This document shows positions 1-23,247 of a DNA stretch of 37,569 nt, in pieces. Under the pieces are notes generated by a model. That model searched no databases. It saw only the letters and a list, made by a program, of their open reading frames with translations, and was not told the DNA's origin. The DNA is from Oscillospiraceae bacterium (GTDB lineage: Bacteria; Bacillota; Clostridia; Oscillospirales; Oscillospiraceae), in assembly GCA_017561205.1 (NCBI GenBank), contig JAFZDL010000085.1:1-37569 (forward strand). Reading direction: 5' to 3'. Positions within the stretch are counted from its first letter, which is position 1. Every line of letters starts with the position of its first letter. A program made the translations under genes and the position numbers.

Positions 1-3000
1 AATAACTGTAACCTCAATCTGAATGATAATAAATCTGGCAAAGCTTACCCCTTGGCCCAAGGCAAAACCTTGAACATCACTAATTCCAATGTGACCATGG
101 AATCCGGTTCTTACGTTACCCTGGGTGGCACCATGAACGCCTACTATGACGCGATCTCTGCAGCTGTCTACCTAACCGTCAATGGAAATAGCAACGTGAA
201 GATTATTAACAACTGCACTACTGCTCCTAATGGCGATTCCCTTATTGGTATTGGTATCGCGAACAATGATCCAAACAGAGTTGTGGTAAATGGCGGTACC
301 CTGGAGGTTCAAGGCGCCCAGATAGCTATGAATAAGGCTCCCGCTATGACGGATTATGTTAAGAGCTGTGATATGTTCACCGCTGATGGCAAAGTAGATG
401 AGTATGCAGAATCCACCTACTTCAAGGTAGCACCTCCCAGCGCAGTGCCCGAGGAGCCCGCTTGCAAGCACACTGGTGCGATCGAACACGAGGCAAAGTC
501 CGCTACCTGTAAGGAAGCCGGCAACACTGCTTACTGGCACTGCGAAGCCTGCAATAAGTACTTCTCCGATGCGGCTTTCGAGAACGAGATCCCGGTAGAC
601 TCTTGGGTGCTGCCGCAGACCAACGATCACACTCCCGCAGAGGATGACGGCGACTGCACCACAGCAGTCGAGTGCACCGTCTGCGGCGCAGTGACCACTG
701 CGGCAAAGGACGACCACACTCCCGCACTGGACGACGGCGACTGCACCACTCCCATCAAGTGCACCGTCTGTGACACAGTGACCACCCCTGCTGCCTCCCA
801 CACCGGCGGCACTGCTACCTGTAGTGCACTGGCCAAGTGTGACAACTGTGGCAAGGAATACGGCAATCTGGATGCTTCCAACCACAAGTACACCAATTAC
901 AAGTACAACAACGATGCCACCTACAATGCAGATGGCACCGAGACCGCTACCTGTGACAACGGCTGCGGCGAAACCGACACCCGTACCAAAGCAGGTACTA
1001 TGCTCACCGGCGCAGTTGCCGAGGCAAATGGTGTTAAGTACGGCACTCTGACCGAGGCTCTGGCAGCCGGCGGCGTGATCAAGCTGCTGGCCGATGCATC
1101 CATTGATGCAGAGACAGTGCTGACTGCCGGCAATACCTACATTATCCCCGCAGGTCTGACCCTGACTGTAAATGCCAAGGTCACTGCTGACGAAGGCGCT
1201 ATTTTGAACTGCTACGGCACCATCGTAGTAAACGCAGCTACCGATATCTCCAAGCTGGTTTACGGCGAGACCTTTGGCGCTTGCGGCGGTAAGCTGACCG
1301 TTAAGGCAAACGGCTCCGTTGCTATGCTGGACGAGTGGGTTGGCGTATGGACTCCCCTCAACGATGCTAAACTGGGCGCAATGCTGAAGGATTGCGAGAC
1401 CGGCGCAACGATTACTGTCGGCACGCAGAACTGGCAGCTGGCTGAATCCGGCTGGGAGCACTTGAACCATGTTGGTGGCACTGCTACCTGTAGTGCACTG
1501 GCCAAGTGTGAAATCTGCGGCAAGGAATACGGCGAGCTGAATGCTAACAACCACAAGTTCACCGATTACAAGTACAACAACGATGCCACCTACAATGCAG
1601 ATGGCACCGAGACCGCTACCTGTGACAACGGCTGCGGCGAAACCGACACCCGTACCAAAGCAGGTACTATGCTCACCGGCGCAGTTGCACAGATCGGCGA
1701 GACCAAGTACGGCACTCTGGCCGATGCTCTGGCAAAGGTTGAGGATGGCCAGACCGTTACCCTGCTGGAAGATGTAACCACAGCGTTGATCACGGTTGAC
1801 GGCATCAAGCTGACCATCGACCTGGGCGGCAAGACTCTGACCCGCGATGGCAACAGCATCTTCTATATCATCAACGGCGGCGAGCTGACCGTCACCGACG
1901 GTACGCTGGTCTCCACCGGCGGCAATGCTGCTATTTACTCTTACGGCGATGGCGTTAAGAAGAATGCTATCAAGCTGAATGGCGTTACGCTGAACAGTGC
2001 TTGGTTTGGCGTATACCACAATGGTCTCAGCTACGGCGTCGATGTACAGATTATAAATTCCAACATCACTGATACTAAGGATGATGGCGCAGGTGTGTTC
2101 CTGTCCGGCAATGCTGCTTGGGGCGCTGAAAATCAGAACACGCTGAGAATTTCCGCAGGCTCCACCATTAAGGGTGCTACCGCAGTGGAAGTGAAGTACA
2201 CTGATGTGACTGTTGAAAACAGCGAACTGATTGCTACCGCTGACAAGACTGTTGCGGACAACGCCAACGGCAGCTGCACCACCGGCTATGCTCTGGCATT
2301 GACCAACAACGGCAACGAAGCCACCATCGGCTCCATTACCCTCGAAGGCACCAACACGCTGACCGGCGGCGCTATGGTTAAGGCTGGCAACACCGTGAAT
2401 GTCACCACCAACGCTCCTGAGAAGGTTGAAGCTCCCGCTGATTACAAGTGGGTCGGCGAAGTTCTGACTGCTAAGGACTATGTTGCACAGGTCGGCGACA
2501 CCAAGTACGAGTCCCTGCAGACTGCTATCAACGAAGCTGAGTCTGGCGCAACTGTTACCCTGCTGGATGACATTACCATTAGTGCCTACATCAATATCAC
2601 TAAGAGCATTACTCTGGATCTGGTCGAGCACACCATTACCCGTGAAGACGGCACTGGTCTGTATATTAACAATGCAGACGCAGAAGTCGTTATCAAGAAC
2701 GGTACGATTGATGCAAGCAAGAATGCTATCTTTGTCGGTGCTGCAAAGAAGGTCGAAATCACCGACTGCACTGCAATCTGCCTGACTGAGGATGATGCAA
2801 TGGCCGCGATCTATATTTTGGGCGGCGAAGTCGTCATCACCAACGCCAATGTTACCGCATACGGCCCCGCTGTTTGGGCACAGGGCAATAGCGCAGTGAC
2901 CATCGTGAGCGGCGACTTCGTAGGCGGCAACCACGCTGCTTATGCAAAAGAAAATGCTTCTATCGATATCGAAGGCGGTAAGTTCTCTATTAACAGAGAA

Positions 3001-4347
3001 GGCGTTGGTCACTACGTAGTGAACAAGTATGACTCTGACATAGAAACTGCATCTATCGTTATTAAGGGCGGCGAGTTCAAGGACTTCGATCCTGCTGACA
3101 ACAAGGCAGATGGCGCGGGCACCAACTACCTGGCTGACGAGACCCAGCACACCGCAGTTGATGCATACGGCTACTATGCAATCTGCACCAAGACTGCTAA
3201 GGATCCTGTTAAGGATGCTGAGAGCGAAGTTGCAGCTGACTGCACCAACGCAGGCTCCTACGATATGGTTGTTTACTGCGAGTGCGGTAAGGAACTGTCC
3301 CGTGAGACCACCACTGTTCCTGCAACCGGCCACGTCAATACCACTACCACTGAGACTATTGTTGACGCAACCTGTACTACCGCTGGTAGCAAGACCACTG
3401 CTGTGACTTGCGCTTGCAGCGAGGTCGTCAGCACCACCACCGATGTGATCCCCGCAAAGGGCCACATCGACGAGAACGGCGACGATTACTGCGATAACTG
3501 CAGTAATAAGATCGGCGGTATCATCAATGGCTTCTACTACGAGAACGGCGAGATCGTCAAGAGTAAGGGCTTGGTCGAAATTGATGGCAACATCTACTAC
3601 ATCGACAACAATGGCCAGGTAGCTAAGGGTGAGGTCTATGTAGCTGCTGCAAAGACCAATAGTTTTGTGTGTGCTGGCTATTACGTATTCGATGAAGAAA
3701 CCGGCGCTATGAAGCCGCATAATGGCATCTATAGAGGATTCTACTATGTAAACAACGAGATCGCTATTCTCAATTCTTTGATTGAAATCGATGGAAAAAT
3801 TTATTTCATTGGTAGCAAGGGCCAGGTTGCCAAGGGTGAATACTATGTATCTGCCGAAAAGGCCAATAATCTGGTGCAGGCTGGTATTTACAAATTCGAC
3901 GCAGACACTGGTGTTATGGAGATGAACCATGGCATCGTTAACGGTGTCTACTACGAGAACGGTAGCATTGTTGCCAATAAGGGCCTAATTAAGGACGGCG
4001 AGGAATATTTCTACGTTGGTAGCAAGGGCCAGCTTGTCAAGGGTGAATACTATGTATCCGCTGCAAAGACCAATGGTTTTGTGAGTGCTGGCTATTACGT
4101 ATTCGATGAAGAAACCGGCGCTATGAAGCCGCATAATGGCATCTATAGAGGATTCTACTATGTAAACAACGAGATCGCTATTCTCAATTCTTTGATTGAA
4201 ATCGATGGAAAGATTTATTTCATTGGTAGCAAGGGCCAGGTTGCCAAGGGTGAATACTATGTATCTGCCCAAAAGGCCAATAATCTGGTGAAGGCTGGTA
4301 TTTACAAATTCGATGCAACCACTGGCGAATTGGTCACTGGTAACTAA
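1..4347 (+). CDS. Large repeat-rich cell-surface protein (5' end outside window)
   Basis: The reading frame is open from base 1, so the true start and any signal peptide lie upstream; only the last 1448 codons are visible. The protein has beta-helix-like stretches (regular Gly/Asn/Val/Thr rungs, roughly 1690-3100), several Cys-rich segments with CxxC pairs (for example HTGGTATC...CDNCGKEYG), and four C-terminal units of 69 residues starting at 3529, 3736, 3943 and 4150, each opening with GFYY or GVYY. The Cys segments and beta-helix resemble secreted Firmicute adhesin-like proteins; the aromatic/Gly terminal repeats resemble cell-wall-binding repeats, which suggests wall attachment. I see no LPxTG motif. 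Codon use is strongly biased (GGC, ACC, AAG, CTG), unlike the AT-rich polysaccharide genes downstream. The exact function is unknown; adhesion or surface-layer roles are inference. Confidence 0.8.
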   Translation, partial: NNCNLNLNDNKSGKAYPLAQGKTLNITNSNVTMESGSYVTLGGTMNAYYDAISAAVYLTVNGNSNVKIINNCTTAPNGDSLIGIGIANNDPNRVVVNGGTLEVQGAQIAMNKAPAMTDYVKSCDMFTADGKVDEYAESTYFKVAPPSAVPEEPACKHTGAIEHEAKSATCKEAGNTAYWHCEACNKYFSDAAFENEIPVDSWVLPQTNDHTPAEDDGDCTTAVECTVCGAVTTAAKDDHTPALDDGDCTTPIKCTVCDTVTTPAASHTGGTATCSALAKCDNCGKEYGNLDASNHKYTNYKYNNDATYNADGTETATCDNGCGETDTRTKAGTMLTGAVAEANGVKYGTLTEALAAGGVIKLLADASIDAETVLTAGNTYIIPAGLTLTVNAKVTADEGAILNCYGTIVVNAATDISKLVYGETFGACGGKLTVKANGSVAMLDEWVGVWTPLNDAKLGAMLKDCETGATITVGTQNWQLAESGWEHLNHVGGTATCSALAKCEICGKEYGELNANNHKFTDYKYNNDATYNADGTETATCDNGCGETDTRTKAGTMLTGAVAQIGETKYGTLADALAKVEDGQTVTLLEDVTTALITVDGIKLTIDLGGKTLTRDGNSIFYIINGGELTVTDGTLVSTGGNAAIYSYGDGVKKNAIKLNGVTLNSAWFGVYHNGLSYGVDVQIINSNITDTKDDGAGVFLSGNAAWGAENQNTLRISAGSTIKGATAVEVKYTDVTVENSELIATADKTVADNANGSCTTGYALALTNNGNEATIGSITLEGTNTLTGGAMVKAGNTVNVTTNAPEKVEAPADYKWVGEVLTAKDYVAQVGDTKYESLQTAINEAESGATVTLLDDITISAYINITKSITLDLVEHTITREDGTGLYINNADAEVVIKNGTIDASKNAIFVGAAKKVEITDCTAICLTEDDAMAAIYILGGEVVITNANVTAYGPAVWAQGNSAVTIVSGDFVGGNHAAYAKENASIDIEGGKFSINREGVGHYVVNKYDSDIETASIVIKGGEFKDFDPADNKADGAGTNYLADETQHTAVDAYGYYAICTKTAKDPVKDAESEVAADCTNAGSYDMVVYCECGKELSRETTTVPATGHVNTTTTETIVDATCTTAGSKTTAVTCACSEVVSTTTDVIPAKGHIDENGDDYCDNCSNKIGGIINGFYYENGEIVKSKGLVEIDGNIYYIDNNGQVAKGEVYVAAAKTNSFVCAGYYVFDEETGAMKPHNGIYRGFYYVNNEIAILNSLIEIDGKIYFIGSKGQVAKGEYYVSAEKANNLVQAGIYKFDADTGVMEMNHGIVNGVYYENGSIVANKGLIKDGEEYFYVGSKGQLVKGEYYVSAAKTNGFVSAGYYVFDEETGAMKPHNGIYRGFYYVNNEIAILNSLIEIDGKIYFIGSKGQVAKGEYYVSAQKANNLVKAGIYKFDATTGELVTGN
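622..784 (+). repeat. Tandem 87-bp (29-residue) Cys-containing repeat, about two units
   Basis: Within the surface-protein gene, two adjacent units share the pattern DHTPA-x-DDGDCTT-x3-CTVC. The CACACTCCCGC block recurs at 628 and 715, an 87-bp period. Each unit carries a CTVC pair. Confidence 0.8.
808..1688 (+). repeat. Two near-identical 212-bp direct repeats in the surface-protein gene
   Basis: Bases 808-1019 and 1477-1688 match almost base for base with an offset of 669. The differences cluster in two short patches after the CxxC motif and before the NHK motif. Each copy encodes a Cys-rich module ending at TRTKAGTMLTGAVA and is followed by a different beta-helix segment. High nucleotide identity suggests recent duplication or gene conversion. 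Confidence 0.9.
3529..4347 (+). repeat. Four 69-residue C-terminal repeats in two alternating types
   Basis: Units begin at 3529, 3736, 3943 and 4150, exactly 207 bp apart. The sequence from about 3646 to 3905 recurs almost identically at 4060-4319 (offset 414), so the higher-order unit is a pair of 69-residue repeats (A-B-A'-B). Motifs include GFYY, GQVAKGE and YVSA. The pattern suggests duplication of a two-unit block in a cell-wall-binding tail. Confidence 0.9.
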
Positions 4348-9549: not shown

Positions 9550-9574
9550 AAAGCGTGATATTGGAGGAATGAAT

Positions 9575-10882
9575 GTGAATTTATCAGACATAAAAATAAA
9601 ACCCAGAACTTTAGGTGGAGGAGTTTTACTAGGGTATTACTGTGTATACACATTTATTGCTCGATTTTCTCCTATAGGCGGAAGGAATGTCGACTTAATA
9701 GTCATTGGTGTGACTGCAATTTCCGCGTTCTTACTTCTTATTACTTTATTTATAAATAAAAGTGCTTCCGCCGAAAACAGACTAAATCATGTATTTGTAT
9801 ATTGGTTGCCTTTTTTGGGAGTTTTGCTGTTTCAGTACCTGAAAGGATACTGCAACACCTCTTACCTATTGCTATTTATTTTGTTTGTTTTGTCGCTAAT
9901 GTTAACAAATACGAATTATTTGATGTGTAATAGGATGGCAAAGTCCTTTAAAATTATGGCTGTTATTGCAGTATTGGGAACATTTTCTCAATTTGTGATA
10001 CCGTCGGTTCATAAAATCATTATCTCTGTTTTGTATTCAAGTGAAGGAGTGAAATATATTCAGTCATATGCCCAGCGAGGGTATTATTCGGGTTTTTTTT
10101 ATCAGGTCGGAGATGCAGCGTTTTATTTATCGGTAGGTATTCTTGCTGTGTTTTTGGTGAAACAAGACTCCAAAAGAAAAACTGTTACTTGCCTGCTTTT
10201 CACATTGTTTATGATTTTAGAAGGCAAGCGATCATTGGTCGTGCTCGTACTTGTAATTCTACTGTATACATATATTATCCAAGCCAAAGGGCATAAGCGT
10301 GCAATGCGCTTTGCGGTGGCCGGACTCGTTGTAATGCTGAGCTGGATTGTGGTAAAAGAGATCTCTGCTAATTTAAGTAATATAATTCTCTTCAAAAAAT
10401 TAGCGACAACAATATCCTTCCTGGAAGGCGGGGATGTTGAAGGAGTTTTGTTTAGCAGCGGAAGATCTTGGCTATATGATCTGGCAGAAAAACTATTTCA
10501 TGAAAATCCGATTACAGGAATTGGATGGGCTGAGTTTTCAAAGATTTCAGGAAGAGTCAATAACCAAGTAACATCTGTACACAATATTTATTTGCAGCTA
10601 TTATGTGAAACAGGAATAGTTGGATTTGGCAGCTTTATCTTAGCTGCAGGTACAACAGCAGTTCGTACCATAAGGGCATATATTTCCGGCAGAAGTGCAA
10701 AGCAGTTGGAAGATGGTGTTTTACAGAAATTTCTCCTGCTATCAATTGCAGGTCAGCTTTTGTTTCTCCTTTTTGGATTGGTGGAGAATCCTCTTTATAA
10801 TGGCAACTGTTTAGCATTTTATTTTTTGATGGTTTTAATGGGAGAATCCATCATGTTAAAGTTAAGAGGAAAGCAGTTGTAA
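9575..10882 (+). CDS. wzy: O-antigen polymerase/ligase-like membrane protein (Wzy type)
   Basis: About 435 residues with roughly ten or more hydrophobic segments and a larger polar loop in the C-terminal half containing GRSWLYD, GIGWAEF and HNIYLQLLCETG, a pattern typical of the Wzy/O-antigen ligase superfamily. It would polymerise lipid-linked repeat units on the outer membrane face. GTG 9575 is preferred because GGAGGA at 9563-9568 sits six bases upstream; the in-frame ATG at 9569 abuts that site and would be poorly spaced. A single Wzy in the locus fits a Wzx/Wzy pathway. Sequence divergence is normal for this family, so the call rests on topology, the loop and context. Confidence 0.8.
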   Translation: MNLSDIKIKPRTLGGGVLLGYYCVYTFIARFSPIGGRNVDLIVIGVTAISAFLLLITLFINKSASAENRLNHVFVYWLPFLGVLLFQYLKGYCNTSYLLLFILFVLSLMLTNTNYLMCNRMAKSFKIMAVIAVLGTFSQFVIPSVHKIIISVLYSSEGVKYIQSYAQRGYYSGFFYQVGDAAFYLSVGILAVFLVKQDSKRKTVTCLLFTLFMILEGKRSLVVLVLVILLYTYIIQAKGHKRAMRFAVAGLVVMLSWIVVKEISANLSNIILFKKLATTISFLEGGDVEGVLFSSGRSWLYDLAEKLFHENPITGIGWAEFSKISGRVNNQVTSVHNIYLQLLCETGIVGFGSFILAAGTTAVRTIRAYISGRSAKQLEDGVLQKFLLLSIAGQLLFLLFGLVENPLYNGNCLAFYFLMVLMGESIMLKLRGKQL

Positions 10883-12143: not shown

Positions 12144-13037
12144 ATGTTTTTATCTTTAAAGGATATACACGAATTACGAAACAGTATTCGAAACGAATAT
12201 AGAATCAGAAGATTTATTAGAGAGAATCCTGAAATAAAGGGATTATTATCGCCGAACAAGCTGTTCCGAGACAAATACAAAGGACAGCGGTGTTTTGTTT
12301 TGGGGAATGGGCCTTCGTTGAAAAATGTAGATTTTAGCCTTTTACAGGATGAAATTGTATTTACAGTAAATCAGCTGCCCAGAAACAAAGAATACGAAAA
12401 ATTAAAATCCAATTTCCATTTTTGGGCAGATGAAAGATTCTTTAATATCGATGAAACAAAACCGGAGGATTTAGAATTACTTGATGTAATGAAAAGTGTT
12501 AACACGCCAGGAAATAAGCCGGTCGTATTCTACGAATATTGCGCAAAACAAATGATAGAAAAATATGATCTAGATAAAGTGTTGGATATTCATTATTTTG
12601 CTCTTGTTCATTTGGATTTTGACGCTTATACAAAGAGGCACAAAATAGAAGTCGATAAATGCTTTCCTAATTTACCAACTGTAGTGCATAGTATTATTGC
12701 CATGGCTGTTGATATGGGCTTTTCGGAGATTATTCTACTTGGATGTGATTGTACAGGGTTTATAACAACAGCCCAAGCGAAAATGAAAAATTGGAACAAT
12801 GATATTTTATATGGCTATAAAATCTCAGAGAATGAAAAAAAACGTTTAGAAAAATCGAACAATATGTTTTCTATCGAAAATGAATTGAGATTTTACGCTA
12901 ACATATTCGCTACATATTCTAAATTGAATAAATTAGCAGAAAAAAATGGTGTAAAAATTTATAATGCTACGGAAGGCGGTCTTCTTGATTGCATTCCACG
13001 TGTTGATTATAACTCGCTTTTTAACAAAAATGATTGA
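12144..13037 (+). CDS. DUF115/MptE-like Rossmann-fold protein
   Basis: A 297-residue protein with the DUF115 (PF01973-like) signature: RCFVLGNGPSLKN (residues 49-61), HSIIAMAVDMGFSEIILLGCD, and a C-terminal YNATEGGLLDCIPRV. Relatives occur in surface-glycan and flagellin-glycosylation loci; the fold is shared with 6-hydroxymethylpterin pyrophosphokinase. It lies 11 bases after the ATP-grasp gene with an AAGGTGAAGAG ribosome site. The C-terminal domain of the aldolase at 16389 looks distantly similar (GKSIS, TIGLN). Codons are markedly AT-rich. A transferase role on a glycan is plausible but unproven. Confidence 0.7.
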   Translation: MFLSLKDIHELRNSIRNEYRIRRFIRENPEIKGLLSPNKLFRDKYKGQRCFVLGNGPSLKNVDFSLLQDEIVFTVNQLPRNKEYEKLKSNFHFWADERFFNIDETKPEDLELLDVMKSVNTPGNKPVVFYEYCAKQMIEKYDLDKVLDIHYFALVHLDFDAYTKRHKIEVDKCFPNLPTVVHSIIAMAVDMGFSEIILLGCDCTGFITTAQAKMKNWNNDILYGYKISENEKKRLEKSNNMFSIENELRFYANIFATYSKLNKLAEKNGVKIYNATEGGLLDCIPRVDYNSLFNKND

Positions 13038-13083: not shown

Positions 13084-14529
13084 ATGGAAAATGATTTAAA
13101 AGGCAAAACCATCTCAGGAATTTTTTGGAAGTTTATGGAGCGAATAGGCGCAAAGGTAATAAGTTCTATTGTATCAATAGTTTTGGCGAGATTACTGCTT
13201 CCTGAAGATTATGCAGCAATTGCCTTAGTAATGGTATTTATAAATTTAAGTGATATTTTGATAAACTCAGGATTCTCAAGTTCACTTGTGCAAAAAAAAG
13301 ATGCTGATGATGTTGATTTTTCATCAGTATTTTATATAAGTTTGATATTAAGTATAGTATTATACATTGTCATCTTTATTTGTGCTCCATTAATATCCGT
13401 TTTTTATGATATGCCTATTTTAACTCCTGTAACAAGAGTAATTGGAATAAAGGTTATAATTTCGGCTATAAATGCAACCCAGCAGGCGTATGTATCGAGA
13501 GAAATGACATTTAAGAAATTCTTTTTTGCCACACTTATTGGTACATTAATTTCTGCATTCATAGGTATCATAATGGCATATAATGGGCTTGGTGTATGGG
13601 CATTAGTTACACAGCACTTATCCAATTTGACAATTGATACTATAGTGTTGTGGTTTACAGTAAAATGGAGACCGCAAAAAACGTTTTCTTTTAAACAAGT
13701 TAAGAAACTGTTGAATTTTGGGTGGAAAATATTAGCATCAGACTTACTAAATGCAGTGTTTAATGATTTAAGGACGATACTAATAGGAAAAAGCTATTCT
13801 GCAGATCAGCTGGCATATTATTCTAAAGGCAAAGAATATCCCAATACAATAGTTACATCTATAAACAGCTCTTTGAATATGGTTTTGTTTTCTGCAATAT
13901 CAAAAGAGCAGGAAAACATTGATGTTGTCAAGTTAATGGTCAGACGATCGCTAAAATTGGCATCTTATATTATTTTCCCTGTTATGATAGGCTTTGCTGC
14001 TGTAGCCGAGTCTTTTGTTCATGTTTTTTTAACGGAAAAGTGGTTGACGGTTATTCTATTTTTACAGGTATATTGTTTTGCATTTGCCTTTTCCCCATTA
14101 TTATCGATAAATTTACAATTAATAAAAGCCATGGGAAGAAGCGATTTATCAATAAAGATTGAAATAATAAAAAAAATAGTAGGACTTGCAATACTTTGTG
14201 TAACACTTTTTATTGGTGTAGAGGCAATAGCAATAGGCTCTTTAGTATCTCAAATTCTGTATTATTTGCTCAATAGTTTTCCAAACAAAAAATTAATAAA
14301 ATACAGCGTCTTGGAACAGTTGAAAGATATTTTTCCTAATTTTTTAATTTCGATAATAATGTTTATTGCAGTTTATAGTTTAGGTTTTTTGATGGAATAT
14401 GGAATGGGATTGATGATTTTGCAAATATCACTTGGGGTTTTGGTATATTTGTTAATGTCTTTGATTTCAAAAAACGAGTCGTTTTTTTACATATTGAATA
14501 TGGTTAAAAACAAATTTATAAAAAAATAA
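13084..14529 (+). CDS. wzx: Polysaccharide flippase of the MOP superfamily (Wzx/PST type)
   Basis: A 481-residue membrane protein with about 12-14 hydrophobic segments. The N-terminus has the WzxC-type GKTISGIFWKFMERIGAK followed by LARLLLPEDYA, characteristic of PST-type exporters. It would flip undecaprenyl-linked repeat units across the membrane for the polymerase at 9575. An AAGGTG ribosome site lies five bases before the ATG. The gene is strongly AT-rich (many AUA, UUA, AAA codons), like its neighbours and unlike the flanking chromosome, consistent with horizontal acquisition. Confidence 0.9.
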   Translation: MENDLKGKTISGIFWKFMERIGAKVISSIVSIVLARLLLPEDYAAIALVMVFINLSDILINSGFSSSLVQKKDADDVDFSSVFYISLILSIVLYIVIFICAPLISVFYDMPILTPVTRVIGIKVIISAINATQQAYVSREMTFKKFFFATLIGTLISAFIGIIMAYNGLGVWALVTQHLSNLTIDTIVLWFTVKWRPQKTFSFKQVKKLLNFGWKILASDLLNAVFNDLRTILIGKSYSADQLAYYSKGKEYPNTIVTSINSSLNMVLFSAISKEQENIDVVKLMVRRSLKLASYIIFPVMIGFAAVAESFVHVFLTEKWLTVILFLQVYCFAFAFSPLLSINLQLIKAMGRSDLSIKIEIIKKIVGLAILCVTLFIGVEAIAIGSLVSQILYYLLNSFPNKKLIKYSVLEQLKDIFPNFLISIIMFIAVYSLGFLMEYGMGLMILQISLGVLVYLLMSLISKNESFFYILNMVKNKFIKK

Positions 14530-14557: not shown

Positions 14558-15714
14558 ATGAAGTATGGGATAATTACACTTTTTCAGAATTATAATTATG
14601 GCGCAACTTTGCAGAGTTATGCCTTGCAAAGAATTGTTAAAGAATATGGGTATGATGTTGAAACGATTCAATATGAACGTACGGCGATTAATACAAATAA
14701 AACTGGTATTTTCAATAAATTAACGCCTAGAAAAATTTTTTGTTTTTTAGCAAAAAAAATAAAAAGCACAAAGATAAAAAAGGATAATAGTATATTTATT
14801 GAAAATGATGACTCTATTAGAAGATATTTATTTGACAGTTTTATAAAAGAAAATATGCTTATAAGTAAGCATGCATATACAAAATCTACTATAGCGGAAT
14901 CTAACAGAATATATCAAGGTTTTATATGTGGCAGTGATAACATTTGGAATAAAAATTTGTTTGACTCCTCATTTATGCTTGATTTTGCCGATGAGAAAAA
15001 AAGAAAAATTGCATATGCCCCTGGGATGAGTACCGATCATTTATCAAAAAAACAACAAGATTTATTTTTGCCACCAATAAGAAGGCTTGATTACTTGTCT
15101 TGTAGGGAAAAAATAGGGGCATCCCTTTTGGAGAAATTGATAAAAAAGGAGGTAAAAGTTGTTTTAGATCCAACGTTATTATTAAGCAAAGAACAATGGA
15201 GTGAAATATCCGTATCTCCTGATATTAATCTCCCCCCCAGATATGCTTTCGCATATATATGTGATCATAATACATTGACTGATATTAAAATTAAAGAAAT
15301 ATCGAAACGGTTGAATTTGCCAATAGTGCTTGTTCCAAACATGGGCGGCGAATTTAAGTTGTTTGGTGCGGAGTCTGTTTTTAAGGTGAATAATGTTGGA
15401 CCAGCAGAATTTATTTATTTAGTAAAAAATAGCAATTTGGTTTTGACAGATTCGTTTCATGGCACTGTGTTTGCATGTTTGTTTGAAAAAATTTTTATGC
15501 TTTTAGAAGATTTTCCGATACAAATAGAATGCAGTTGAATTATCGAATAGACAATCTTTTGGATTTGGCAGGGATAAGCTCTTCTCGTATAATAAAAGAA
15601 GTAGAAGATGAGTTCAATGAAGAATCAATAAATTGGGATAATACAAAGAGATTGATTAACCAAAAGAAAAATGAAAGCCTGTTGTATTTAAAAAACGCTT
15701 TGAAGAATAATTAG
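14558..15714 (+). pseudogene. Polysaccharide pyruvyl transferase family gene with a frameshift
   Basis: The first 326 codons encode a PF04230-type pyruvyl transferase: ITLFQNYNYGATLQSYAL at the N-terminus, GSDNIWN, YAPGMS, and LTDSFHGTVFACLFEK at the C-terminal active-site block. At about 15515-15517 (ATTTTCCGATACA) the frame breaks and stops at 15538. The next frame continues through DTNRMQLNYRIDNLL (bases 15517 onward) to 15714, which fits the usual family C-terminus. One missing base would restore about 385 residues, a normal family length. The lesion may be genuine inactivation or an assembly error. The protein is a distant paralogue of the one at 4802 and differs in length. Confidence 0.82.
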
Positions 15715-15728
15715 TTTTGGAGATTGTT

Positions 15729-16373
15729 ATGACAATTGTTGCAGTAATGCCTATAAAATTAAACAACGAACGCCTTCCAGGAAAAAATACAATGTTATTG
15801 GGAGGAAAACCATTGCTTCAGCATGAATTGGATGGGTTGAAATCTACCAATTTGATCGAAAGCATAAATGTTTTTTGCAGCAACGAGGATGTTATCCCGT
15901 TTTTGCCTGAAGGTGTGAATTTTGTAAAGCGTCCTGAATATTTGGATTTGCCTACATCGAATTTCAATCAGATATTTGAGGCATTTATGGATACTATGAA
16001 TGCGGATATATATGTCTATGCGCATGCCACAGCTCCGTTTATTTCGGTTGAAACCATGAAAGAGTGCATAGAGGCTGTTATGTCTGGCGAATATGACTCT
16101 GCTTTTTGCGCCGTGAAATTACAGGATTATTTGTGGCAAAATGGCGAGCCGTTGAACTTTGATGCATCAAATCTGCCGAGAACGCAAGATCTTCTGCCAA
16201 TTTATCAAGAAACATCCGGCGTATATGTATTTAGAAAAGAAACATATGAAAAGTACAGACGAAGAATAGGAAGGAAGCCATTTATAAAGGAAGTCTCATT
16301 TAAGGAGTCTGTAGATATAGATAACCCCGAAGATTTTGAGCTGGCAGAAGCGCTTGTAAATATAAATATTTAA
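15729..16373 (+). CDS. Acylneuraminate-type cytidylyltransferase (CMP-sugar synthetase)
   Basis: A 214-residue member of the NeuA/KdsB-like cytidylyltransferase family, which activates a sugar acid with CTP to give a CMP-sugar. Key marks are the nucleotide-binding NERLPGKN (residues 13-20), GGKPLLQH, ATAPFIS (the usual TsPl position), and VDIDNPEDFELAEAL at the C-terminus. ATG 15729 follows TTGGAG; an in-frame TTG at 15717 is part of that ribosome site. It is followed by an aldolase and a KdsC-type phosphatase, pointing to an ulosonic-acid-like substrate. Related enzymes also activate other acids, so the exact sugar is open. Confidence 0.83.
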   Translation: MTIVAVMPIKLNNERLPGKNTMLLGGKPLLQHELDGLKSTNLIESINVFCSNEDVIPFLPEGVNFVKRPEYLDLPTSNFNQIFEAFMDTMNADIYVYAHATAPFISVETMKECIEAVMSGEYDSAFCAVKLQDYLWQNGEPLNFDASNLPRTQDLLPIYQETSGVYVFRKETYEKYRRRIGRKPFIKEVSFKESVDIDNPEDFELAEALVNINI

Positions 16374-16388
16374 AGGGGAGTAATACGA

Positions 16389-17972
16389 ATGAATTCATTA
16401 AAAGTTCTTGATGTAACCCTTCGTGATGGCGGATGTGTAAATGAGTTTAACTTCGGACAATCATACATGGAAAAAATCCTTGCCGCTCAAGAAGCTGCAG
16501 GTATAGATATTATCGAATTAGGCTATATTGATGAGAATAAGGGTTCTTCTGTTGGCAGAACTCAATATTCTGATGAACAGGTGATAAAAAAATCTATTTT
16601 AAAGAATAAGAAAACTGGAATTACATATGTCGCAATGATAGATTATGGCAAATTCAATATCGATAATTTGCATGACTATACGGAAGATGGAATTGATGGA
16701 ATCAGACTAGCGTTCCATAAAAAAGATCGTTTTGATGTGATTGAATTAGGCAGAAAAATCATATCGAAAGGATATAAGTTTTTCGTCCAACCAATGATAA
16801 CTTTAAGATATGACGATAGGGAACTTATAGAATTTATTGAATTAGTAAATAGTAAATTGCCTGATGCTGCAGGATTTTATATTGTAGATACGTTTGGTGA
16901 GATGAGACCAAATGATATGAATAGAATTTTGCATCTTGTAGATAATAACCTAAATTCGGACATACCGTTAGGATTTCATTCTCACAATAATCTGCAGATG
17001 TCATATTCAAATGCGATTTCTTTGTTGCAATTTCCAACAAATAGAGATTTGATGTTAGATTGTTCTATTATGGGAATGGGAAAAGGTGCTGGCAATCTTA
17101 ATACGGAGCTTCTATTGGAACACCTGAATTTATTCTATGGAAAGAAGTATGAAATATCCCCTTTGCTTGAAGTAATAGATAAAGTTATTAATCAGCTTCA
17201 TGATGAATTTTATTGGGGATATGCTCCGGAATATTATCTTTCGTCTGCAAACGGATGCACTCCAAGTTATGCAAGTCATTTTTATAATAAACACATGCTT
17301 CCTATTGATCAAGTAGGCGAATTGCTTGCTATGATTAGCGAGGAAAAGAAGATATCTTTCGATAAGAATTACGCTGAAGAAATATATCGTCAGTACAATG
17401 AAAGTAAGGCGGTGAACGATGCTACTGTTGTTGAAGAACTGACAGCCGCATTTGCTGGGAAAACAATATTGTTAGTTGCTCCGGGAAAAAGTATTTCTGA
17501 GCATAAGGAAAAAATAGTAGCGGTTTCTGAAGCTGATGATGTTGTTACCATTGGGTTGAACACCGTGACAGATAGTAATGATTATCTACTGACTACACGT
17601 AAAGATATCTATGATTCTGCGGTTGCAAGTGGAAAGAATGTTATAGTTTGCTCTAATATATCCAAGGGCGGAAGGGGTAATGTAAGGATTCTCAATTACA
17701 GTAACTGGATTGATGTTGATGATAGAACACACGATTCCTCTTCTGTTATTGCATTAAATCTATTGAAAGCCTGTGGTGTAAAGTGTGTAAAGCTGGCTGG
17801 CTTTGATGGATTCTCTGCAAATATAAATGAAAACTATTTTGATCCCAATATGCGTCGACCGGTCACTATTGAGCAGGCTGAAAGAAGAAATAAATACTAT
17901 AAAGAGTTTATTAATAGGATAAAAGAAGGTGGAGTTAATGTTGAATTTATTACGCCTTCCAAATATGAATAA
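16389..17972 (+). CDS. HMGL-type pyruvate aldolase fused to a DUF115-like domain
   Basis: A 527-residue two-domain protein. Residues 1 to about 300 form a DRE-TIM aldolase domain (4-hydroxy-2-oxovalerate aldolase/HMG-CoA lyase type) with TLRDGG (10-15, metal ligand D13) and HSHNN (H197, H199 metal ligands); these enzymes make or break bonds to pyruvate or acyl-CoA enolates using a divalent metal. Residues about 355-520 form a Rossmann-like domain (TILLVAPGKSIS, VTIGLN, KCVKLAGFDGF) resembling DUF115. A GGGGAG ribosome site precedes the ATG. Position after the CMP-transferase suggests aldol formation of a 2-keto-3-deoxy sugar acid, which is inference. Domain calls are solid; the reaction is not proven. 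Confidence 0.8.
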   Translation: MNSLKVLDVTLRDGGCVNEFNFGQSYMEKILAAQEAAGIDIIELGYIDENKGSSVGRTQYSDEQVIKKSILKNKKTGITYVAMIDYGKFNIDNLHDYTEDGIDGIRLAFHKKDRFDVIELGRKIISKGYKFFVQPMITLRYDDRELIEFIELVNSKLPDAAGFYIVDTFGEMRPNDMNRILHLVDNNLNSDIPLGFHSHNNLQMSYSNAISLLQFPTNRDLMLDCSIMGMGKGAGNLNTELLLEHLNLFYGKKYEISPLLEVIDKVINQLHDEFYWGYAPEYYLSSANGCTPSYASHFYNKHMLPIDQVGELLAMISEEKKISFDKNYAEEIYRQYNESKAVNDATVVEELTAAFAGKTILLVAPGKSISEHKEKIVAVSEADDVVTIGLNTVTDSNDYLLTTRKDIYDSAVASGKNVIVCSNISKGGRGNVRILNYSNWIDVDDRTHDSSSVIALNLLKACGVKCVKLAGFDGFSANINENYFDPNMRRPVTIEQAERRNKYYKEFINRIKEGGVNVEFITPSKYE

Positions 17973-17994
17973 ATTAAGTGATCAAAATAGATAG

Positions 17995-18102
17995 TTGGAA
18001 GTTGATATTGCCCGAGAAGCGGCAAGAAGCATTTCGGTTCTTGTGAATAGTCGGGTTGAACTTAACAATAACATAATAGGTAATCCAGCGTTGTTTTATT
18101 GA
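17995..18102 (+). other. Short open frame of unknown origin between aldolase and phosphatase genes
   Basis: The 214-base gap between the aldolase stop and the next gene holds an open stretch of 35 codons (EVDIAREAARSISVLVNSRV and onward) ending in TGA. It has protein-like composition but no ribosome site and no recognisable family. It may be the 3' remnant of a lost gene, or chance. Confidence 0.25.
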
Positions 18103-18186
18103 GATCACTATATTTGAGTATGTTTGTTATTATGACATTAGGTATAACGGTTATTGTGTATGGCAAGACGAAGGAGTATTTAAGAA

Positions 18187-19068
18187 ATGGTAAAATATCT
18201 CGTGATGGATGTTGATGGGACGCTCACAGATGGAAAAATTTATATGGGGCAAGAGGGAGAGCTGTCAAAAGCCTTTGACATAAAAGATGGCTGTGGAATT
18301 GCCCAAATTCTTCCTAAGTATGAGATTACACCGATTATTATCACGGCTAGGAAAAGTAAAATACTTGAAAATCGGTGTAAAGAGCTTGGAATTGTTGAGT
18401 TGCACCAGGGCGTAAGCGATAAATTGATAAAACTAAAAGAAATCGTAGGAGAGGATTTCAGCACTGTTGCTTATGCAGGAGATGATTTGCCCGATATACC
18501 TTGCATGGAAGCAATAAAAAAGGCAGGGGGGCTTGTGTTATGCCCATCAGATGCTATTCCGGAGATTAAGGCGCTATCAAATTATGTGTCTGTATGCAAA
18601 GCGGGCGATGGAGCAATTAGAGATTGTATCAATTTTCTTGTTCAAAAGAGTGGAGACTCAAATATAGAAAAACGAATAAGGGATACTATGAACATCATTC
18701 TTAGTGGTAAGTACCTTTCTTTTCGTGATGGAACCCTGCCTGATGGTACACAATTCGTAATTCATGAATATATGACCAAGGATGAAGCTGACTGTGTCAT
18801 CGAAAGTCATAGAATGCATATTGATATACAATACATTATTGAGGGGCATGAAGAGTTTGCGACATATATGCCGGCAATGCTGACCAGTAGCGGTATCTAT
18901 AATGCAGAAAAAGATGTAGAGTACTGGCGGGATGGGTTTGTGTCATCCTATAATATTTTGAATCCCGGGAGTTTGATTGTTGTTTATAATGGGCAACCGC
19001 ACAAGGGGGCAATTAAGCACGGAAAAACGGAAAAGGTAAAAAAATTGGTATGTAAAATAGAGATTTGA
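18187..19068 (+). CDS. KdsC-type HAD phosphatase fused to a YhcH/DUF386 domain
   Basis: A 293-residue fusion. Residues 1-152 are a KdsC-like HAD phosphatase: MDVDGTLTDGKIY (D8, D10 nucleophile pair), KAFDIKDGCGI (28-38), T54 in TARKS, K79, and YAGDDLPDIPCM (96-107), close to Kdo-8-phosphate phosphatase. Residues about 168-293 match the YhcH/YjgK/YiaL family: ESHRMHIDIQYIIEGHE (206-222, H211, D213) and YNGQPHKGA (267-275, H272). YhcH proteins are cupin-like and tied to sialic-acid and other sugar metabolism, possibly as anomerases. AAGGAG ten bases upstream supports the start. The fusion suggests dephosphorylation of a 2-keto-3-deoxy sugar-acid phosphate coupled to anomer control before CMP activation. 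Substrate is inferred. Confidence 0.85.
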   Translation: MVKYLVMDVDGTLTDGKIYMGQEGELSKAFDIKDGCGIAQILPKYEITPIIITARKSKILENRCKELGIVELHQGVSDKLIKLKEIVGEDFSTVAYAGDDLPDIPCMEAIKKAGGLVLCPSDAIPEIKALSNYVSVCKAGDGAIRDCINFLVQKSGDSNIEKRIRDTMNIILSGKYLSFRDGTLPDGTQFVIHEYMTKDEADCVIESHRMHIDIQYIIEGHEEFATYMPAMLTSSGIYNAEKDVEYWRDGFVSSYNILNPGSLIVVYNGQPHKGAIKHGKTEKVKKLVCKIEI

Positions 19069-19107: not shown

Positions 19108-19560
19108 TATGTAACTATATCAAACACCGGGTCATGGCGAGCTGCCGGCGGTTACGATGTATATGTTTGTGAGCTTCAAAGTAGACGGCGAGACTAAGTC
19201 TGTTTCCCAGTATGTGCGTGTTGACAACATTACAAAGCCTGGTATCACACTTGAAAATGGCAAGGTCAATGTGGAGATGTACAATTATGAATTCTCCAAG
19301 GCTTATGTGTTCTACTTGAGCGATGCTGCATCTGTTAATACTAACAACTGGACTCAGGTAAAGGATGCTGCTGCAAAGGAGCAGAACAATCCTTACGCAA
19401 GCACGACCAAGAACGGCTTTATGACTTATCGGCAGTCTTCTAAGAAGAACCATAAGGATGCGATTTATCTCCCCAATGTGGCAGCACTTATGTTGTGTTC
19501 GTAAGCTACATCGACGAGGACGGTGCCATCGTGCAGGTTTCCGAGACTTTTGTGGTATAG
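19108..19560 (+). pseudogene. Decayed 3' end of a secreted/surface protein gene, frameshifted
   Basis: From about 19108 a frame reads GHGELPAVTMYMFVSFKVDG and continues through SQYVRVDNITKPGITLENGK to about 19480. There it shifts; the other frame continues STYVVFVSYIDEDGAIVQVS to a TAG at 19558-19560. Restoring one G in the GTGGCAGC at 19478-19485 would rejoin them. There is no start codon with a ribosome site, and the upstream frame is closed by TAA near 19099. The GGC/AAG-rich codon use and beta-sandwich-like Val/Tyr pattern resemble the surface protein at 1-4347 more than the neighbouring AT-rich genes. It looks like the remnant of a second large surface protein cut by insertion or deletion. 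Confidence 0.75.
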
Positions 19561-22064: not shown

Positions 22065-22586
22065 ATGGATAAGAATTTGTTGATCGTGGGAGCGGGCTCG
22101 TATGCGCAGGTTGCCTTTGAGATTGCGACGGATATAGGATGCTTTAAAAAGATAGGCTTCGTTGATGATAAAATCAAGAGCCTGAAAAATGGCATTGCTG
22201 TGATTGGTACCACCCGGGATATTGACTGTTTGACAGGGGAGTACAGTGATATTATTGTCGCTATCGGCAATCCGGAAGTCAGACTTTCCTTACTGACGAG
22301 AATCAAAGAAAAATTTCCGCAAAACATCGTATCTTTGATTTCGCCAAGAGCATATATTTCATCTGCGGCAAAAGTTATGCCTGGATGCATTATTGAGCCT
22401 ATGGCAGTTGTCCACTCCCAGTGCGTGCTGGAAGAAGGGTGTATTATTTCGGCTGGTGCTGTGGTAAATCACGAAAGCACCTGCGGTAGAGGTGTCCATG
22501 TGGACTGCAATGCAACTGTTGCAGCGTATGCTTGTGTTCCTGTGGGAACGAAAATTTGCAGTGGAGAGGTGTATTGGGATGTATAA
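22065..22586 (+). CDS. PglD/NeuD-type sugar O/N-acyltransferase
   Basis: A 173-residue protein with the PglD_N-type Rossmann start LLIVGAGSYAQVAFEIA, then left-handed beta-helix repeats (for example ISSAAKVMPGCIIEPMAVVH). His residues around VVHSQ and VVNHES match the catalytic region of PglD/NeuD enzymes, which acetylate UDP-amino sugars or sialic acid. ATG 22065 starts the family-like N-terminus; TTG 22059 is an alternative with better spacing to GGGAAGG. The next gene begins eight bases before its stop. Pairing with the phosphoglycosyl transferase resembles PglC-PglD pairs, suggesting acylation of the first sugar. Confidence 0.82.
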   Translation: MDKNLLIVGAGSYAQVAFEIATDIGCFKKIGFVDDKIKSLKNGIAVIGTTRDIDCLTGEYSDIIVAIGNPEVRLSLLTRIKEKFPQNIVSLISPRAYISSAAKVMPGCIIEPMAVVHSQCVLEEGCIISAGAVVNHESTCGRGVHVDCNATVAAYACVPVGTKICSGEVYWDV

Positions 22587-23247
22587 GCGCTTTGTGAAAA
22601 GAGTGCTGGATTTGATTTTTTCCGGTGTGGCGGGTGTGCTGCTGATACTGCCTATGTTGATCGTTGCCGTTGCTATTAAAGTAGATGATCCCGGGCCTGC
22701 TTTGTTTAAGCAAAGACGTGTGGGTCAAAAGAAAAATGGCGAAATTACATATTTTATGATGAGGAAATTCCGCAGCATGAAGATGTGCACACCTCACGAT
22801 GTGCCTACCCATCTGCTGGAAAACCCAGAGCAGTATATCACTCGTGTTGGCAAGTTTATTCGTAGGACCAGCATTGATGAGCTGCCCCAAATCTATCAGG
22901 TCTTTGCTGGCAAGCTGTCTTTTGTCGGTCCCAGACCTGCGCTGTGGTCACAGGATGACTTGATTGCAGAGCGGGAAAAGTACGGCGCAAACGAGATGAA
23001 GCCCGGTATTACCGGCTGGGCGCAGATTAACGGCCGGGACGAGCTGGAAATTCCTGTAAAAGCTAAGCTTGACGGTGAATACGCTGCGGCGCTGAACGCA
23101 GGAAAATGCAAGGGCTTGGCAATGGATTTAAAATGTCTCTTTGGCACCGTTACCAGCGTGCTGAAAGGCGACGGCATTGTAGAAGGCGGCACCGGCAGAA
23201 TGAAGAAGGAAGAAACTGAGAAACAGAAGGAAGTTGTGAGTCAATGA
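22579..23247 (+). CDS. Initiating phosphoglycosyl transferase (bacterial sugar transferase, PglC-like)
   Basis: A 222-residue monotopic phosphoglycosyl transferase that places a sugar-1-phosphate on undecaprenyl phosphate, the first step of repeat-unit assembly. It has an N-terminal membrane segment (11-34), DDPGPALFKQRRVG (36-49), KFRSM (63-67), the Asp-Glu catalytic dyad in TSIDELPQI, SFVGPRP and PGITGWAQINGRD. The length fits PglC/WecA-independent small members rather than the large WbaP form. This is the only initiating transferase visible, so operon 1 probably depends on it. The end overlaps the next start (ATGA). Confidence 0.93.
   Translation: MYKRFVKRVLDLIFSGVAGVLLILPMLIVAVAIKVDDPGPALFKQRRVGQKKNGEITYFMMRKFRSMKMCTPHDVPTHLLENPEQYITRVGKFIRRTSIDELPQIYQVFAGKLSFVGPRPALWSQDDLIAEREKYGANEMKPGITGWAQINGRDELEIPVKAKLDGEYAAALNAGKCKGLAMDLKCLFGTVTSVLKGDGIVEGGTGRMKKEETEKQKEVVSQ

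Follow-up and report, generated by a model that had tools for sequence, protein, structure and literature searches.

Can a bacterium make a ulosonic acid for its surface glycan without the enzyme that classically builds the carbon skeleton of such sugars? Ulosonic acids (sialic acids, 3-deoxy-D-manno-octulosonic acid (Kdo) and their kin) are a mark of cytidine monophosphate (CMP)-sugar biology, and their skeleton classically comes from NeuB/KdsA-type synthases that depend on phosphoenolpyruvate (PEP). The question is raised by contig JAFZDL010000085.1 of an Oscillospiraceae bacterium (assembly GCA_017561205.1), all 37,569 nucleotides of which we analysed and refer to as the window; the assembly to which this complete contig belongs has 1.8 Mb in 114 contigs and is 83% complete. 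Three consecutive genes on its plus strand, confirmed by their open reading frames (ORFs) and by Pfam and NCBIfam matches (Table 1), encode a cytidylyltransferase, an aldolase fusion protein and a phosphatase fused to a YhcH-type domain. We consider it likely that this trio makes a CMP-activated 3-deoxy-2-ulosonic acid for the cell-surface polysaccharide of the surrounding cluster, with the aldolase replacing NeuB or KdsA. A first-pass annotation, made from the sequence alone, had recognized the three genes and proposed such a route; the proposal gains support from the co-occurrence of the genes and from the absence of the synthases, and we infer all of its catalytic steps and its product.

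Domain make-up of the three proteins

The first protein is a member of the NeuA/KdsB family, matching PF02348 with 70.5 bits against a cut-off of 22.6. It reaches no equivalog cut-off for KdsB or PseF (the best is PseF, at 55 bits versus 205.7), and its best sequence match in the PDB is the NeuA structure 9t4z, at 43 bits. We place the start at the ATG at 15729; a TTG at 15717 is also in frame.

The N-terminal part of the second protein is a DRE-TIM aldolase domain, for which the best NCBIfam model is 4-hydroxy-2-oxovalerate aldolase, at 103 bits and under the cut-off of 229; TIGR03217, a model for the same activity, gives 95.1 bits and misses its equivalog cut-off of 286. The closest solved structure is 3dxi (BVU_2661), with 103 bits by sequence and also the top fold match; it was deposited as a 'putative aldolase', and the literature that we searched holds no paper on it. 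In 4-hydroxy-2-oxo acid (HOA) aldolases, an Asp and an HxH motif are the metal ligands, an RD motif contributes an Arg, and the catalytic His follows the RDG motif. R12, D13, H197 and H199 of the window protein are invariant in 26 aligned rows, and the same residues are found in DmpG (1nvm). The C-terminal domain had been called DUF115-like, a guess that came close in fold, since the predicted structure (pLDDT, the predicted local distance difference test, of 90) matches MptE/HPPK and the GT42 sialyltransferases, but the domain alone has no Pfam match at E 0.1. A profile of this domain run against PDB sequences finds SteA (0.019) and HPPK (0.056), with no GT42 protein up to E 10; as a guess from the modelled fold, the domain might bind or transfer CMP or a CMP-sugar.

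In the third protein, the KdsC-type score given in Table 1 exceeds its cut-off of 106.95. The YhcH-type domain passes TIGR00022 (cut-off 45.5) and misses the equivalog model for N-acetylneuraminate anomerase, NF040884, at 44.5 bits versus 160; the YhcH structure 1jop aligns to residues 192-292 of the fusion. YhcH interconverts the ring and open forms of N-acetylneuraminic acid and of 2-keto-3-deoxynononic acid, supplying an aldolase with the open form, according to the accessible part of PMC8141875. A domain of this type fits an aldolase route, because the open form is the direct product of an aldolase.

Recurrence of the module and synthases in its carriers

The trio is a recurrent, coherent module. 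Aldolase relatives at E 1e-20 or better occur in 59 of 391 genomes of the class, our own included, and in 24 of these 59 (again with our own) the match spans at least 480 of the 527 residues. KdsC-type matches are found in 14 other genomes of the class, seven of which have an aldolase relative, and under E 1e-30 six of eight matches come with a relative. Named genomes hold at least 553 aldolase relatives, and the 80 loci kept from these come from Clostridia, Bacilli, Negativicutes, Bacteroidota, Fusobacterium, Treponema, Campylobacterales, Gastranaerophilales and one archaeal metagenome-assembled genome. The first-pass annotation had thought the route unusual for a Gram-positive bacterium; the gene arrangement does recur in Gram-positives but is not peculiar to them, being found in Gram-negative phyla as well.

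Gene order was compared across 121 loci, namely the window, a first set (L033-L072) and a second set (L073-L152), with ORFs called in each; four loci without an aldolase ORF under the ORF caller (L039, L088, L109 and L124) were dropped, and among the 117 retained L048 and L150 are identical in sequence and are each counted. Neighbouring genes were scored with profiles built from the first set, and the labels NeuA-like, KdsB-like, KdsC and HAD come from our own profiles, with an NCBIfam/Pfam check for a few proteins. The expected co-occurrence is borne out: in 51 of 115 loci the gene immediately before the aldolase gene is a same-strand cytidylyltransferase gene, whereas each other position up to six genes away holds one in two loci at most; immediately after the aldolase gene comes a phosphatase gene (KdsC-type or HAD_2-type) in 46 of 112. 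The second set was found with an alignment mostly of cytidylyltransferase-type members, which biases the share of that type upward and affects position counts less; in it the directly upstream place is taken in 36 of 76 cases, versus 7 of 894 other places within eight genes, and the first set alone gives 15 of 39 versus 2 of 512. The median gap between cytidylyltransferase and aldolase over the 51 pairs is -4 bases. The trio is unlikely to be due to chance, since many genomes share its gene order. A plasmid of Leisingera caerulea (Alphaproteobacteria), from outside the sample, carries consecutive genes annotated as an aldolase, a 3-deoxy-manno-octulosonate cytidylyltransferase and a HAD hydrolase, and our own profiles agree.

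Natural fusions join the aldolase to KdsB-like (L123), KdsC-like (L059) and IspD-like (L047, L049, L050 and L149) domains. A quick tree of 117 aldolase rows shows no fewer than 14 changes of cytidylyltransferase family, and at least four changes of context between cytidylyltransferase and thiamine diphosphate (ThDP) enzyme; as judged from these sequences, partners appear to be swapped and the activity kept. Short stand-alone relatives of about 320-370 residues (L065-L072) form a separate clade with no cytidylyltransferase or ThDP gene nearby, and a copy on a Priestia plasmid (L169), outside any glycan cluster, resembles them.

The second line of evidence concerns the classical synthases, which the first-pass annotation had found missing from the trio. 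The only protein in our own assembly matching PF03102 (NeuB) or PF00793 is a 3-deoxy-D-arabino-heptulosonate 7-phosphate (DAHP) synthase, whose gene adjoins that of a prephenate dehydrogenase; it scores 45 bits with PF03102, 271 bits with PF00793 and 117 bits with the KdsA model TIGR01362 (cut-off 314). A classical pathway with a synthase of this assembly was thus ruled down, the sole match being the DAHP synthase. For genome-wide counts of the synthases, KpsF/KdsD and PEP mutase we used 53 of the 59 cytidylyltransferase-type loci, leaving out the four IspD fusions, L122 and L135. Among these 53 carriers of the pair, 44 have no NeuB of at least 200 bits, 42 no KdsA over the cut-off, and 35 neither. 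Completeness is unstated for 38 of the 53 genomes; 14 are known to reach 90% completeness or more, and 11 of those have neither synthase. The scores are two-peaked: all other NeuB-model matches lie at or below 48 bits (except for a 60-bit piece whose genome is already among those counted), and other KdsA-model matches at or below 139 bits. The carriers with KdsA all belong, by their named records, to outer-membrane groups, and KdsA serves lipopolysaccharide in outer-membrane bacteria; LpxC has no match in our own assembly.

Which aldehyde might be used? KpsF/KdsD passes the cut-off in 11 of the 53 carriers, all but one of which also have KdsA. In L063 a KdsD-type arabinose-5-phosphate isomerase gene directly follows the cytidylyltransferase-aldolase pair in a genome without a KdsA match, and from this position D-arabinose-5-phosphate is the likely aldehyde in that locus. 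Most carriers lack KdsD, so other loci need not make Kdo, and the aldehydes probably differ between carriers. In L102, whose genome has KdsA, a KdsD-type gene lies six genes upstream of the trio. A link to arabinose-5-phosphate in our own genome was tried and not counted as evidence, as the sole KpsF-type match, from a different contig, is a short SIS protein covering model positions 5-157 of 268 with 124 bits versus a cut-off of 203.7, and with neighbours that have no evident tie to such a role. Split transketolase-like gene pairs were seen directly before the aldolase on a Desulfobaculum plasmid (L167:7191-8989, annotated) and, as it seems from sequence, in L073 (1-1448), about 8.5 kb upstream of the aldolase; they are possibly an aldehyde source or another branching enzyme.

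Proposed route and competing explanations

We propose that the DRE-TIM aldolase would form a 3-deoxy-2-ulosonate phosphate by adding the enolate of pyruvate to a sugar aldehyde that carries a phosphate, and that the KdsC-type domain would, by its family, remove the phosphate. The fused YhcH-type domain might then speed the exchange between the open chain and the ring anomers, providing the form needed by the next enzyme, and the NeuA/KdsB-type enzyme would, again by family, make the CMP sugar. The aldol reaction is reversible and would be pulled forward by the phosphatase together with the cleavage of cytidine triphosphate (CTP). As to the last step, we can only guess that the sugar is attached by an MptE/GT42-like transferase, either the MptE-like protein encoded upstream in the window or the aldolase's own C-terminal domain.

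Genes for candidate transferases are common near the pair. The alpha-2,8-polysialyltransferase family passes its cut-off in L033, L080, L042 and L037. By profile, 22 of 58 cytidylyltransferase-type loci have a polysialyltransferase-like gene no more than eight genes from the aldolase, versus 1 of 37 ThDP-type loci, and MptE-like genes, the kind carried by the window, are this close in 20 of 58 versus none of 37 by an iterated profile whose first pass already matches 18 of the 20. The two sets of loci are disjoint and together make 42 of 58 versus 1 of 37, in counts that ignore kinship. The MptE-like neighbours can be linked by sequence to the C-terminal domain of the aldolase once the profile is iterated, but not in its first pass.

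Several findings weigh against the route as proposed. The position of the catalytic His of HOA aldolases is Cys16 in the window protein, by alignment to DmpG, and among 117 relatives it is Tyr in 90, Cys in six and His in one; with Cys or Tyr there, HOA chemistry is not simply transferable to this aldolase, and no characterized enzyme of the family was found in the literature searched. The incomplete assembly limits the absence of NeuB and KdsA in our own genome, and 18 of the 53 carriers do have NeuB (9) or KdsA (11), two of them both. Kdo itself is not the general product, given that KpsF/KdsD is found in so few carriers and in only one without KdsA; the genome of L063, the most Kdo-like locus, carries three NeuB genes, one of them on the same contig at a distance of about 20 kb. 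The KdsC-YhcH fusion is absent at E 1e-15 from the other 390 of the 391 genomes of the class, so that the anomerase step depends on a single protein. The enrichment of transferases is not independent of kinship: with only two to four independent contrasts, 0.05 is out of reach of a sign test. A cytidylyltransferase is missing beside the aldolase in the 37 ThDP-type loci and in 21 loci with neither partner. A gene like that for 2-keto-3-deoxygluconate kinase, found in L035, L077, L090 and also the ThDP-type L132, misfits a simple dephosphorylation route. This PfkB kinase follows the cytidylyltransferase-aldolase pair at L035:10273-11295, L077:11590-12612 and L090:4227-5249, and that of L035 is nearest to 2-keto-3-deoxygluconate kinase models while scoring below their cut-offs. 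Finally, neither this kinase gene nor the IspD-aldolase fusions agree with a single simple product.

The strongest competitor, which we nonetheless regard as unlikely, holds that the 2-oxo acid made by the aldolase is used elsewhere, for example as the donor of a ThDP-dependent branching enzyme, and that the other two enzymes act on a separate acid sugar whose precursor is supplied by an unseen NeuB or KdsA or by uptake. It draws on the incompleteness of our assembly, on the carriers that have a synthase, and on the 37 of 117 loci where the aldolase stands beside an acetolactate-synthase-like ThDP gene with no cytidylyltransferase. An RfbH-like gene is present in 24 of these 37, by a profile that may also pick up other DegT-family genes. 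Such loci, among them L041, L043, L051, L054, L061, L098, L108 and L146, often have RfbH-like and HAD phosphatase genes, and are candidates for long-branched sugar clusters. The ThDP enzymes ErwE and MMAR_2332 favour hydroxylated 2-oxo-acid donors, in the case of ErwE 4-hydroxy-2-oxo acids, according to the accessible part of PMC12247030; in that of PMC7821131 caryophyllose is described and its synthesis is not. The ThDP context, as far as a neighbourhood can tell, supports the aldolase chemistry itself, 4-hydroxy-2-oxo acids being the expected product class of a pyruvate aldolase; the likeness of the neighbouring ThDP genes to ErwE rests on acetolactate-synthase-like models for one gene, a further point on the cautious side. 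Against a separate origin of the acid sugar, no ThDP gene is found from three genes before to four after the aldolase in the window and 57 other cytidylyltransferase-type loci (L062 has both), the aldolase is fused to KdsB- and KdsC-like domains, and most of the near-complete genomes have neither synthase.

Somewhat less probable still is that CTP activates an acid other than a CMP-ulosonate, for instance a 3-deoxy-aldonate phosphate, formed by reduction of the 2-oxo acid and then converted to a cytidine diphosphate (CDP) compound, as in teichoic-acid chemistry. The IspD/TarI-like domains fused to the aldolase speak for this, as do the 2-hydroxyacid dehydrogenase-type genes close downstream in three of those four loci (two genes downstream in L047; in L049 and L050 the next gene downstream belongs to the same BLAST cluster); the protein of L047 reaches 212 bits with the D-ribitol-5-phosphate cytidylyltransferase model NF001183 (cut-off 166), and the IspD-fusion clade lies within the starred 12-row tree group of the window. 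For L047, L049, L050 and L149 a CDP-activated 3-deoxy-aldonate is thus possibly the product; the fusions of L047 and L050 are without the C-terminal domain. In the window, by contrast, the cytidylyltransferase is of the CTP_transf_3 family and the phosphatase is KdsC-type, an enzyme that removes the phosphate that such a compound would keep, and YhcH, a studied DUF386 protein, acts on 2-ulosonic acids in the accessible part of the work cited above.

PntC is a cytidylyltransferase that activates phosphonates, and phosphonomethylmalate synthase is an HMGL-type enzyme. A phosphonate pathway built from enzymes of these two kinds, phosphonates having been raised as an alternative by the first-pass annotation, fits poorly and seems very improbable: PEP mutase genes occur in the same cluster in one carrier and elsewhere in the genome in seven others of the 53, but the model TIGR02320 has no match at E 1e-10 in our own assembly and none over the cut-off in 45 of the 53, the best aldolase model is a pyruvate aldolase and not an acyl-CoA synthase, and the words 'HMGL' and 'aldolase' are absent from the phosphonate paper PMC6697681. 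With PEP mutase unmatched at home and rare among carriers, this candidate was ruled down. The clustered PEP mutase-type protein lies beside the cytidylyltransferase-aldolase pair of L038 (G370:C9:61758-62609), where the polysaccharide may also carry phosphonate.

The surrounding cluster and known systems

The trio sits within a Wzx/Wzy-type polysaccharide cluster with a flippase, a Wzy_C protein, an initiating sugar transferase and glycosyltransferases (Table 1). Just upstream, at 14558-15714, a polysaccharide pyruvyl transferase ORF ends at 15538 and a C-terminal-like stretch continues in another frame; either the gene is disrupted or the assembly is wrong at this point. A remnant-like coding stretch at 19115-19560, after the phosphatase fusion and before the operon that follows, appears by sequence to resemble a fragment of a surface-protein repeat. 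Near the contig start, an ORF of 1431 residues (52-4347) has a weak choline-binding-repeat similarity, below the cut-off, and a long antisense ORF runs over most of it.

Table 1. Positions in the window of the three genes, their domains and the neighbouring polysaccharide genes.
Feature	Position	Strand	Evidence
NeuA/KdsB-family cytidylyltransferase (CTP_transf_3), predicted CMP-ulosonate maker	15729-16373	+	PF02348 2.3e-19
Aldolase fusion protein, 527 aa	16389-17972	+	HMGL-like PF00682 6.4e-18
DRE-TIM aldolase domain (residues 1-335), predicted pyruvate aldolase forming 3-deoxy-2-ulosonate	16389-17393	+	NCBIfam, fold match 3dxi, DmpG alignment
C-terminal domain of aldolase protein, MptE/GT42-like predicted fold	17406-17972	+	structure prediction
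Phosphatase fusion, 293 aa, 214-base gap after aldolase gene	18187-19068	+	TIGR01670 and TIGR00022
KdsC-type HAD phosphatase domain (residues 1-157)	18187-18657	+	TIGR01670 129.4 bits; E. coli KdsC 2r8e 104.5 bits
YhcH/NanQ-like anomerase domain (residues 162-293), fused to phosphatase	18670-19068	+	TIGR00022 57.9 bits; PF04074 2e-19
MptE-like protein, candidate CMP-ulosonate transferase	12144-13037	+	PF01973 3.2e-11
Wzx-type flippase	13084-14529	+	PF13440 7.1e-94
Wzy/O-antigen ligase-type protein	9569-10882	+	PF04932 2.2e-16
Initiating bacterial sugar transferase	22492-23247	+	PF02397 1.9e-48

Taking the two contexts together, we lean towards the view that the BVU_2661-like aldolase family is a general source of 3-deoxy-2-oxo sugar acids for surface glycans. 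In Gram-positives and Gram-negatives alike, it would replace NeuB/KdsA where a cytidylyltransferase and a phosphatase accompany it, and lead to CMP-ulosonates whose chain length probably varies; alongside ThDP enzymes it would supply the 4-hydroxy-2-oxo-acid donor for long-branched sugars of the erwiniose and caryophyllose kind. Its C-terminal domain may act as an integral CMP-sugar transferase or as a sensor. If this is true, a pyruvate aldolase would be a non-homologous replacement of the committed ulosonate-forming reaction, and genome surveys keyed to NeuB and KdsA would overlook carriers such as the 35 that have neither. An orphan structural-genomics family would then gain a function, many Clostridia would be expected to have acid sugars, and branched-sugar ThDP enzymes would have a possible source for their donors. 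In the literature searched, which leaves most subscription papers outside it, we found no account of an aldolase-based CMP-ulosonate route, and the word 'aldolase' is absent from PMC12409901.

Among known systems, BVU_2661 (3dxi) of Bacteroides vulgatus is closest to the aldolase domain of the window, and was deposited as the N-terminal domain only. The HOA aldolases DmpG and BphI share the DRE-TIM fold, the R-D-G start motif and the HxH metal site, from which pyruvate-type aldol chemistry is expected; the window protein differs in scoring far below the family cut-off, in the exchange of the catalytic His for Cys or Tyr among its relatives, and in having a cytidylyltransferase and a phosphatase as partners. 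ErwE, MMAR_2332 and YerE have their likeness in the acetolactate-synthase-like ThDP genes beside the same aldolase family, while the window has no such gene. A Kdo island in Bacillus coahuilensis also places Kdo-type genes in a Gram-positive, but, as described in the accessible part of PMC4744853, it has kdsA and kdsD and so follows the classical route, unlike the window. With the classical pathways to CMP-Kdo (KdsD-KdsA-KdsC-KdsB) and CMP-nonulosonates (NeuB, phosphatase, NeuA) the trio has in common the KdsC-type phosphatase and the NeuA/KdsB-type cytidylyltransferase, and likewise candidate CMP-sugar-type transferases nearby and a setting in a polysaccharide cluster; where these pathways employ a PEP-dependent KdsA or NeuB, none of which was found with the trio, the window has a DRE-TIM metal aldolase, presumably pyruvate-using, and a fused YhcH-type domain.

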